Positions 8,681 to 12,792 of a stretch of 64,000 bases of DNA are shown one piece after another. A program made the translations under genes and the position numbers. The stretch is from Alphaproteobacteria bacterium. GTDB taxonomy: Bacteria > Pseudomonadota > Alphaproteobacteria > Rhodobacterales > Rhodobacteraceae. The stretch is from contig JAUHVR010000009.1 of NCBI GenBank assembly GCA_030424865.1, positions 62,001 to 126,000 on the forward strand, read 5' to 3'. The notes below the pieces were generated by a model. The model was not told where the DNA came from. It did no database searches and was given only the letters and a program-made list of their open reading frames with translations. Each line of letters opens with the position of its first letter. The stretch's first letter is position 1.

Positions 8681-9021
8681 GTCACATCCAAAGACGGACA
8701 TCACCTGAGTGACCACTTGTGCGCACTTGCGCCTGTGCAGTCGGCATTTGCCAAGGGGACGCATGTCGCCCGACACCGCTTTGTATCGCGCGCCGCGCCC
8801 CGCACCTTTGGCATTCAGACCCTGTGGTCGCAAATCTGTCCCGGCGACACCTCGCGAAAAATACCTCGAACCTGAGGCGTTTCACCGCGCCACAATGCAA
8901 GCGGATTCAAATTTGAGGGAAATTTCGGATCGGAACCCAAATCTTGAAACTATCAAAAAGATCAGCGAGACTCGACGCAACAAAACTTCACAACACAGGT
9001 CAAAAAACCTGATTTTGCCTG
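8681..9021. other. Intergenic region upstream of the ilv promoter
   Basis: About 340 bases without a credible gene. The AT-rich second half (8890-9010) contains TTCAAATTTGA and TTGAAACTATCAA, which could be regulator sites. No tRNA, riboswitch or convincing terminator for the preceding regulator gene is visible. A stretch GAAAAATACCTCG (8857-8869) weakly resembles the conserved intergenic sequence at 25167 and 40996. Confidence 0.5.
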
Positions 9022-9050
9022 TTGACGCCCAATTTCTCCCCGAATAGGTT
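9022..9050 (+). promoter_or_regulatory. Sigma-70-type promoter of the ilv leader
   Basis: TTGACG (9022-9027), a 17-base spacer and TAGGTT (9045-9050) form a good housekeeping promoter. Transcription would begin near 9057, a few bases before the leader-peptide ribosome-binding site. Confidence 0.6.
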
Positions 9051-9079
9051 CCCCGGGCACATCCAAGGGAGCCCGACCA

Positions 9080-9127
9080 GTGAACGCACTAGTCGTCATC
9101 GTAGGAACAAGGCGCATGGGCCGGTAA
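9080..9127 (+). CDS. ilv leader peptide
   Basis: A 15-codon reading frame starting with GTG at 9080 and ending TAA at 9125-9127, reading MNALVVIVGTRRMGR. It is preceded by a strong ribosome-binding site AAGGGAG (9065-9071) at 8 bases. Five successive codons are Leu-Val-Val-Ile-Val, the three branched-chain amino acids whose synthesis starts with the enzyme encoded just downstream. Stalling there when charged Leu, Val or Ile tRNA is scarce would control the attenuator that follows. It was recognised by position, codon content and the matching RNA structures. Confidence 0.8.
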   Translation: MNALVVIVGTRRMGR

Positions 9128-9180
9128 CGGACACCATAATGGAACCCATGCGCCCCCGTCAGATCAGCGGGGGCTTTTTT
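9111..9180 (+). promoter_or_regulatory. ilvI transcription attenuator
   Basis: Two mutually exclusive RNA structures can form. The antiterminator pairs GGCGCATGGG (9111-9120, in the last codons of the leader) with CCCATGCGCC (9145-9154), a perfect 10-bp match. The terminator pairs GCCCCCG (9152-9158) with CGGGGGC (9168-9174), followed by six T (9175-9180). The shared bases 9152-9154 make the two exclusive. A ribosome that reaches the leader stop codon covers the first strand and lets the terminator form. One stalled at the LVVIV codons leaves it free and allows read-through into ilvI. Confidence 0.8.
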
Positions 9181-9220
9181 GTATGTGCACAGTGGAAGAC
9201 GTCGTAAACGGAGCAAAACG

Positions 9221-10975
9221 ATGACACGTCAAATGACCGGAGCGAAAATGGTGGTTCAGGCCCTCAAGGATCAGGGTGTGGACACGGTATTCGGATATCC
9301 CGGGGGCGCTGTCCTACCGATTTATGACGAGATCTTTCAGCAGAACGATATTCGTCACATCCTCGTGCGCCACGAACAGGGCGCGACCCACGCCGCCGAA
9401 GGCTATGCGCGCGCAACCGGCAAGCCGGGTGTTGTGCTTGTGACTTCGGGTCCCGGCGCCACCAACGCGGTGACCGGGCTGACCGACGCGCTGATGGATT
9501 CGATCCCGATTGTTGTGCTGACCGGCCAGGTGCCGACCTTCATGATCGGCTCGGACGCCTTTCAGGAAGCCGACACCGTGGGCATCACCCGCCCCTGCAC
9601 CAAGCACAACTGGCTGGTGAAAGAGACCGACAAGCTGTCGGCCACGATTCACGAGGCCTTTCACGTGGCGACTTCGGGCCGCCCGGGTCCGGTGCTGGTC
9701 GACATCCCCAAGGACGTGCAGTTCGCCAGCGGAGACTACGTGTCCCCGGCCAAGGCGCCGACAGGGCACTACCAGCCGCAGGTCAAGGGCGACATGGAAA
9801 CGATCACCCAGTTGGTCGAAGCCATCGAGACCGCCGAACGCCCGGTGTTCTACACCGGCGGCGGCGTGATCAACTCTGGCCCCGGCGCCAGCCAGTTGCT
9901 GCGCGAACTGGTGGACGCCACCGGCATTCCGATCACCTCGACCCTGATGGGTCTGGGCGCCTACCCGGCCTCGGGCCGAAACTGGCTGGGGATGCTGGGC
10001 ATGCACGGGCTTTACGAGGCAAACCTCGCGATGCATGGTTGCGACCTGATGATCAACATCGGCGCGCGGTTTGACGACCGGATCACCGGGCGTCTGGATG
10101 CCTTCAGCCCGAAGTCGCGCAAGGCGCATATCGACATCGACCCGAGCTCGATCAACAAGGTGATCCACGTGGATATGCCGATCATCGGAGATGTGGGCCA
10201 CGTGCTCGAAGACATTCTGAAGGTCTGGAAATCGCGCGGCCGCAAGGTCAACCGCGAGGCGCTGCAGCACTGGTGGGCGCGGATCGAGGACTGGAAAAAG
10301 GTCGATTGCCTGAAGTTCAAACCCAGCGCCAAGACCATCAAGCCGCAGCACGCGCTTTCCCGTCTTGAAGCGCTGACCAAGGGCATGGACCGCTATGTGA
10401 CCACCGAAGTGGGCCAGCACCAGATGTGGGCGGCGCAATACCTTGGGTTCGAGGACCCGAACCGCTGGATGACCTCGGGTGGTCTGGGCACAATGGGCTA
10501 TGGCTTCCCGGCCTCCATCGGGGTGCAGATGGCCCATCCCGAAGCACTGGTGATCAACGTCGCTGGCGAGGCCAGCTGGTTGATGAACATGCAGGAAATG
10601 GGAACGGCGGTTCAGTATCGCCTGCCCGTGAAGCAGTTCATCCTGAACAACGAACGTCTGGGCATGGTCCGCCAGTGGCAGGAACTGCTGCACGGCGAGC
10701 GGTACTCGCACAGCTGGTCCGAGGCCCTGCCCGATTTCGTGAAACTGGCCGAGGCCTTTGGCGCCAAGGGCATCTATTGCGACAATCCCAATGATCTGGA
10801 TGACGCGATCATGGAGATGATCAACCACGACGGGCCGGTGATCTTTGATTGCCTGGTCGAGAAGCACGAAAACTGCTTCCCGATGATCCCCTCGGGTGAG
10901 CCGCACAACAAGATGCTGCTGGGCGAAGCGTCGACCAAGGATGCCATCGGTGCCTCGGGCGCGGTGATGGTGTAA
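9221..10975 (+). CDS. ilvI: Acetolactate synthase large (catalytic) subunit
   Basis: Thiamine-diphosphate enzyme that condenses pyruvate with pyruvate or 2-oxobutyrate, the first common step to valine, leucine and isoleucine. It has 584 residues, typical of the family. The start at 9221 follows GGAG by 7 bases. Order: ThDP pyrimidine domain with the catalytic glutamate in RHEQGATHAAEGYARA, a central FAD/Rossmann-like domain, and the ThDP pyrophosphate domain. The usual GDG/GDA metal-binding motif here reads GEAS (Glu450), followed by the conserved LNNERLGMVRQWQ. The gene is preceded by a leader-peptide attenuator, and the regulatory subunit gene follows after one intervening gene. Confidence 0.95.
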   Translation: MTRQMTGAKMVVQALKDQGVDTVFGYPGGAVLPIYDEIFQQNDIRHILVRHEQGATHAAEGYARATGKPGVVLVTSGPGATNAVTGLTDALMDSIPIVVLTGQVPTFMIGSDAFQEADTVGITRPCTKHNWLVKETDKLSATIHEAFHVATSGRPGPVLVDIPKDVQFASGDYVSPAKAPTGHYQPQVKGDMETITQLVEAIETAERPVFYTGGGVINSGPGASQLLRELVDATGIPITSTLMGLGAYPASGRNWLGMLGMHGLYEANLAMHGCDLMINIGARFDDRITGRLDAFSPKSRKAHIDIDPSSINKVIHVDMPIIGDVGHVLEDILKVWKSRGRKVNREALQHWWARIEDWKKVDCLKFKPSAKTIKPQHALSRLEALTKGMDRYVTTEVGQHQMWAAQYLGFEDPNRWMTSGGLGTMGYGFPASIGVQMAHPEALVINVAGEASWLMNMQEMGTAVQYRLPVKQFILNNERLGMVRQWQELLHGERYSHSWSEALPDFVKLAEAFGAKGIYCDNPNDLDDAIMEMINHDGPVIFDCLVEKHENCFPMIPSGEPHNKMLLGEASTKDAIGASGAVMV

Positions 10976-12231: not shown

Positions 12232-12792
12232 ATGTCCGCACTTCACATCAAAAAAGGCTCGACCAAGCATTCGGCTTACAACCTGCGCCCGACATTCTCG
12301 GACGTGCAGGAAACGCACACCATTGCCGTGCTGGTCGATAACGAGGCTGGCGTTCTTGCGCGGGTGATCGGGCTGTTCTCGGGCCGGGGCTACAACATCG
12401 AAAGCCTGACCGTGGCCGAGGTGGATCACGAAGGCAAGCTGAGCCGTATCACCATCGTCACCACCGGCACCCCGCAGGTGATCGAGCAGATCAAGGCGCA
12501 ACTGGGCCGGATCGTGCCGGTTCATGACGTGCATGACCTGACGGTCGAAGGCGGGTCCGTGGAACGGGAACTAGCCCTTCTGAAGGTCGCGGGCACCGGC
12601 GACAAGCGGGTCGAGGCTTTGCGGCTGGCGGATATCTTCCGCGCCAACGTCGTGGACAGCACCTTGGAAAGCTTTGTCTTTCAACTGACGGGCACACCTG
12701 ACAAGATCGACGCATTTGCCGACCTGATGCGCCCGCTGGGCCTGGTCGAGATTGCCCGCACCGGCGTCGCCGCCCTGTCGCGCGGGTCCTGA
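12232..12792 (+). CDS. ilvH: Acetolactate synthase regulatory subunit
   Basis: Small subunit that stimulates IlvI and gives it feedback inhibition by valine. It has 186 residues. The N-terminal ACT domain (about 25-100) begins THTIAVLVDNEAGVLARVIG and contains SGRGYNIESLTVAEVD. The C-terminal ALS_ss_C domain follows. The first 20 residues are a variable extension common in this group. The start ATG follows AAAGGAA. It is the last gene of the attenuated operon and ends 10 bases before a convergent gene, with no clear terminator between. Confidence 0.93.
   Translation: MSALHIKKGSTKHSAYNLRPTFSDVQETHTIAVLVDNEAGVLARVIGLFSGRGYNIESLTVAEVDHEGKLSRITIVTTGTPQVIEQIKAQLGRIVPVHDVHDLTVEGGSVERELALLKVAGTGDKRVEALRLADIFRANVVDSTLESFVFQLTGTPDKIDAFADLMRPLGLVEIARTGVAALSRGS

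Follow-up and report, generated by a model that had tools for sequence, protein, structure and literature searches.

The leader region upstream of ilvI

The window analyzed here is a 64,000-nucleotide stretch of a Rhodobacteraceae contig (GenBank assembly GCA_030424865.1, contig JAUHVR010000009.1), in which the acetolactate synthase gene ilvI is preceded by a very short open reading frame and by hairpin-forming sequences. This arrangement raises the question of whether expression of ilvI is adjusted by translation of a leader peptide. The original prediction placed here a promoter, a Shine-Dalgarno sequence, a GTG-initiated leader, a 10-bp antiterminator pairing (P1), and a terminator with six T, and all of them were found at those positions. 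The features are as follows:

9022..9050, + strand: sigma-70-type promoter TTGACG-17-TAGGTT, read from sequence (-35 box TTGACG at 9022-9027, 17-nt spacer, -10 box TAGGTT at 9045-9050); its place is conserved upstream of homologous leaders
9065..9071, + strand: Shine-Dalgarno sequence AAGGGAG, read from sequence; the consensus of relatives (n = 29) is AAAGG.G
9080..9127, + strand: leader open reading frame VNALVVIVGTRRMGR of 15 residues, GTG start at 9080, TAA stop at 9125-9127
9089..9103, + strand: control codons CTA GTC GTC ATC GTA, leader codons 4-8
9111..9120, + strand: 5' strand of P1 (antiterminator), GGCGCATGGG, inside leader codons 11-14, a perfect complement of 9145-9154
9121..9130, + strand: P2 hairpin CCG-GUAA-CGG, whose GNRA-type tetraloop contains the leader stop codon
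9134..9142, + strand: P3, a small CCA/TGG hairpin within P1, weakly conserved (44% of cells paired in 29 relatives)
9145..9154, + strand: 3' strand of P1, CCCATGCGCC; the last 3 nt double as the terminator base
9152..9180, + strand: intrinsic terminator, stem 9152-9158/9168-9174 followed by T6 at 9175-9180
9221..10975, + strand: ilvI (ilvB-type), acetolactate synthase large subunit, ATG at 9221, the gene proposed to be under control
12232..12792, + strand: ilvH, acetolactate synthase small subunit, with Pfam domains ALS_ss_C and ACT_AHAS_ss

By its sequence and by comparison with relatives, the region shows the marks of a leader-peptide attenuator, i.e., a Shine-Dalgarno sequence and a short translatable leader between the promoter and the first gene, selected end-product codons, and a terminator before ilvI. 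The terminator was also detected at 9152-9180 by a terminator scan, which gave 8 stem pairs. The ilvI product scored 1131.6 bits with the NCBIfam model NF006581 (cut-off 974) and 780 with TIGR00118 (cut-off 538), and its closest named relative among plasmid records, with 80% identity, was found in Pseudorhodobacter turbinis (Rhodobacterales), where the attenuator motif is also present. A GT87-family membrane glycosyltransferase gene (Pfam PF09594, 10982-12217) separates ilvI from ilvH, and ilvH is probably on the same transcript as ilvI. An inverted repeat, CAGGTCAAAAAACCTG, lies at 8996-9011, immediately upstream of the -35 box, and is a possible operator.

We consider it highly likely that this element is a ribosome-mediated transcription attenuator for ilvI(H), which would sense the supply of Leu, Val, and Ile and set acetolactate synthase output. 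RNA polymerase would start near 9057, the position predicted by the conserved promoter and well upstream of 9127, the point beyond which a start was named in the original prediction as contradicting it. The nascent stop-codon hairpin P2 may then slow the polymerase until the ribosome arrives, like hairpin 1:2 of the trp leader. When charged Leu, Val, and Ile tRNAs are scarce, the ribosome would stall at codons 4-7, leaving 9111-9120 free; P1 would form once 9145-9154 has been transcribed and would hold the terminator base at 9152-9154, resulting in readthrough into ilvI. When these tRNAs are plentiful, a ribosome at the stop codon would cover 9111-9120 and P2, and the terminator would form at 9152-9180. 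If the leader is not translated at all, readthrough would be favored, because no hairpin shields 9111-9120.

Conservation of the element in Rhodobacterales

Searching 61 related genomes at the DNA level identified 31 places. Among the 30 loci retrieved, 28 were directly upstream of ilvI, one (L019) preceded a gene for a transporter of the MFS family, and one (L028) was spurious and was rejected as an attenuator, being a chance match. A covariance model built from 29 sequences was applied to 244 Rhodobacterales genomes and matched 223 of them, covering 97 of the 101 genera of the order. When 13 model-negative genomes were inspected, a diverged branched-chain amino acid (BCAA) leader was observed before ilvI in six (L217, L219, L223, L225, L226, and L229), and no BCAA leader was found upstream of ilvI in the remaining seven, six of genus g24 and L218. 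Genus g24 (L220-L222, L224, L227, and L228) has lost the ilvI attenuator, the promoter TTGACC...TAGTTT being still in place, and a different mode of ilvI control is expected there. The promoter is kept before the 78 distinct homologous leaders, with TTGACG or TTGACC and a 17-nt spacer in 67 of them, and TAATGT is the commonest -10 box. One genome (G025) carries two ilvI-like genes, each with its own attenuator, and the leader at its locus L030 is MGPILVVPKRMRMGR. Weak second matches of the model (L240-L243, E > 5e-5) were rejected as attenuators.

The distribution beyond Rhodobacterales was sampled only crudely. A simple scan of 100 class-wide genomes for a BCAA leader plus terminator upstream of ilvI yielded 12 hits versus 5 on the antisense strand, which is too noisy to describe distribution, and a stricter version gave 7 versus 2. 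A search for the exact P1 pattern across the class returned only the same family, Nisaea, and a few apparent chance sites. Judged by this sequence conservation, the ilvI attenuator is an ancient and strongly conserved switch, and these data give a clean, order-wide definition of it in Rhodobacterales.

The leader peptide and its control codons

The homologous leaders have exactly 15 codons in 57 of the 78 distinct cases. They start with ATG in 71 and with GTG in 7, indicating that the GTG start, singled out in the original prediction and indeed present in the window, is a minor variant of the family. Of the 285 codons at positions 4-8 of the 57 distinct 15-codon leaders, 270 encode Leu, Val, or Ile and none encodes Phe or Met, indicating that selection acts on the amino acids and not merely on T at the middle position. 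The second base of the control codons is (nearly) always T, and the first and third bases vary. Codon choice is also unusual: CTA accounts for 37% of Leu codons in the leaders versus 1.2% in the window genes, and GTA for 49% of Val codons versus 4.6%. Rare control codons raise the sensitivity of a leader to tRNA charging, as established for E. coli leuL.

The location of the antiterminator strand in the last leader codons, also singled out in the original prediction, was confirmed; however, it is the norm across the family. In genus g315 (L207, L208, L213, L217, and L219), the leader ends just before P1 and the antiterminator strand follows the stop codon, a layout that resembles that of E. 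coli trp.

Covariation of the RNA structure

In the 29 relatives, 98.5% of the terminator cells are paired, and the compensatory changes of this stem were matched by none of 500 shuffles. P1 is nearly frozen in close relatives, with 5 of its 10 pairs never varying among the 29, and this near-invariance exceeds what pairing requires. In 86 sequences, the P1 pairs are kept with compensatory changes, and P1, P2, and the terminator together showed 32 doubly changed paired cells versus 2.8 in shuffles, a count biased towards the model's pairs because the 86-sequence alignment was fitted to the covariance model. Across the three pairs of P2, 19 cells carried changes in both partners.

A hairpin encloses the stop codon in 66 of the 78 leaders of the order versus 24 of 78 with shuffled flanks, and in 9 of 10 strongly diverged leaders it does so with a probability of 1.0 and with different stem sequences; hairpins of this type are retained even in distant alphaproteobacteria despite wholly different stems. 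In L025 and L029, the last leader codon is altered (MGL and MGW) and the bases after the stop codon are altered to match, so that P2 is preserved. Since this hairpin is kept through changes outside the open reading frame, it is the RNA structure, rather than the peptide, that is conserved at this site. In the E. coli trp leader, the loop of hairpin 1:2 holds the leader stop codon and the hairpin pauses the polymerase; by analogy, P2 may be a polymerase-pausing hairpin.

The original prediction had offered an alignment with other Rhodobacterales ilvI upstream regions as its test, a lack of conservation counting against it. The Leu, Val, and Ile codons are conserved, and compensatory changes are present in the stems; the opposite outcome clearly failed to appear. 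Collectively, the conserved leader codons, the conserved pairing, and the compensatory changes in relatives strongly support the reading as a BCAA attenuator.

Overlap of P1 and the terminator

The terminator had been described as exclusive with P1. The two do overlap at 9152-9154; however, these 3 nt are the only ones in common, and the term is too strong. Upon folding of the free RNA, a 7-bp P1 was compatible with the full terminator, and only 16 of the 29 relatives have the outermost P1 pair, so that the overlap in relatives is often just 2 nt.

Folding of truncated RNA, cut before the 3' arm of the terminator, was used to count the bases of the 5' arm held by upstream sequence for each ribosome position. 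In the window, a ribosome stalled at codons 4-7 left 3-4 bases held, versus 1.4 for one positioned at the stop codon, and a stall at codon 8 was predicted not to protect. Six E. coli controls gave about 5-9 bases at the main control codons and near 0 at the stop codon; thrL, trpL, leuL, ilvL, and ivbL agreed in direction with the window, and hisL, the exception at the stop codon, did not. The effect in the window is therefore of the same direction as in the controls and of smaller size, and such a small overlap implies that antitermination must depend on kinetics and could be leaky. Full-leader equilibrium folding with ribosome masks had initially suggested that P1 is unable to block the terminator. 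That approach was abandoned as uninformative, because it yielded the same outcome for six known E. coli attenuators, so equilibrium folding cannot decide. Pairing of the Shine-Dalgarno sequence with the terminator 3' arm and U-tract, suggested by the window fold, was dropped, as it is not common to the relatives tested.

In relatives outside Rhodobacterales, the homologous P1 does not reach into the terminator. For the copies of S. meliloti Ak57, Nisaea, L063, L071, L080, and L207, P1 ends before the terminator with no common nucleotide. In these six copies, a stalled ribosome does not reliably increase the number of arm bases held, and classical strand competition is not evident. How a stalled ribosome would prevent termination there presents a mechanistic gap, since in many alphaproteobacteria P1 and the terminator have few or no nucleotides in common. 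One way to fill it is that the ribosome senses as described above and the P1/P2 unit, instead of sequestering the arm, influences RNA polymerase or termination through its proximity, a ribosome at the stop codon removing the unit. All six non-overlapping copies keep a BCAA leader and a close terminator, the stop-codon hairpin is kept in them except in the L207 group, and the P1 sequence is frozen across the order; these points favor such an action. Nonetheless, an overlap of 2-3 nt is retained in Rhodobacterales, several of the most diverged leaders have preserved chiefly the basal GGCGC/GCGCC pairs, those overlapping the terminator, and no known polymerase-binding element in Rfam matches the window element. 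We regard this action by proximity as unlikely for the window and keep arm sequestration by P1 as the preferred reading.

Related leaders upstream of MFS genes

In Rhodobacterales genomes with more than one match, the strong second copies of the motif were directly upstream of an MFS gene of a single family in 10 of 10 cases (L230-L239), and the copy at L019 likewise precedes an MFS transporter gene of that family. The MFS proteins of L019 and L031, the two tested, passed the Bcr/CflA efflux model, so that relatives of the ilvI element unexpectedly precede pumps of a drug-export type. The MFS-linked attenuator copies also include L031, L247, L248, and L254-L256. Plasmid-borne copies are carried by Roseobacter denitrificans, Phaeobacter piscinae, and Leisingera caerulea; the leaders of MFS-linked copies include MKQIVIVVGRMRMGR and MTPNNIVVVSERCMVR. 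A more distant MFS homologue is encoded in the window genome, and no attenuator leader was found upstream of it. Within a partial coverage of the literature, we found no publication linking the BCAA leader family to an MFS gene.

The Rhizobiales sRNA Atu_C8 (Rfam RF02502) is homologous in layout, with a BCAA leader, GCGCAUGGG stem, stop-codon hairpin, and terminator, and its full-score matches in Nisaea and Paramesorhizobium are directly upstream of an MFS gene. The window element is not a member of this family, as it scored 25.2 bits versus a gathering score of 50, and the downstream gene differs. From these sequences, Atu_C8, so far an orphan sRNA, may instead represent a terminated leader.

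The strong conservation of RMGR and of the P1 sequence, the related copies preceding MFS efflux-type genes and matching an Rfam sRNA family, and the precedent of Sinorhizobium rnTrpL/peTrpL (S. meliloti; PMC10117765) would also suit a terminated leader RNA, or its peptide, as the main product acting in trans, with cis attenuation being secondary. We find this improbable for the window: the changes that preserve P2 when the last codons vary point to the RNA and not the peptide as the conserved part, and the position upstream of ilvI is constant.

A broader proposal can be put forward tentatively, and as a whole it is more doubtful than not. A single alphaproteobacterial family, with a BCAA leader and a stop codon in a hairpin loop by the terminator, would govern acetolactate synthase as well as a clade of Bcr/CflA-type MFS transporters; in several lineages, P1/P2 would prevent termination with no strand sharing of the classical kind, Atu_C8 would be the terminated leader of such an MFS gene, and the pump would depend on BCAA supply or ribosome stalling. 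Should it hold, the same switch is tied to a family of export pumps and an Rfam orphan sRNA is recast.

A metabolite riboswitch or T-box in place of a translated leader would also account for a conserved structure ahead of a biosynthetic gene; it is very improbable, as no Rfam family reached its threshold, with only a weak match to Atu_C8, and the triplet pattern with its (nearly) invariant middle T is present in the control codons. Chance assembly of a small open reading frame and hairpins was refuted, both by the order-wide conservation and by 5000 dinucleotide shuffles of 9000-9220, among which the leader was reproduced in 0, the terminator in 1, a 10-bp stem in 39, and all combined in 0.

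Comparison with known attenuators

BCAA attenuation is textbook knowledge in enteric bacteria (PMC6123439). In Caulobacter, attenuation of ilvBN was shown by Tarleton (1994), as cited in PMC4117421, and the ilvL leader is translated according to ribosome profiling (PMC4117421); alphaproteobacterial ilvIH attenuators were predicted by Vitreschak (2004), as cited in PMC2573895 and PMC1273637. Given this demonstration and this prediction, the window element belongs to an already known type of attenuator, and the parts of specialist interest are the connection to MFS genes, the hairpin around the stop codon, and the short overlap. As far as these citing papers describe them, the predicted ilvIH attenuators share gene and regulation class with the window, and the Caulobacter crescentus ilvBN/ilvIH leader, compared by description and not by alignment, likewise has an acetolactate synthase operon in an alphaproteobacterium, a short translated Ile/Val leader, and an intrinsic terminator.

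The S. meliloti copy L251, with the leader MKNFAVILVVGRRMGRMV, has the GCGCAUGGG/CCCAUGCGC stem as in the window and differs in that its P1 does not overlap the terminator; unlike in the window, ilvI and ilvH are adjacent there. The E. coli ilvGMEDA, ilvBN, leu, thr, and trp attenuators have in common with the window a control-codon leader and, for the window as a prediction, an antiterminator/terminator strand exchange, and E. coli ilvL, like the window, has no default shield. The window leader, however, has 15 codons versus 28-32 in the E. coli BCAA leaders, only 3 nt are shared between P1 and the terminator versus 5-9 in E. coli, the antiterminator strand lies inside the leader, and the P1 sequence is frozen.
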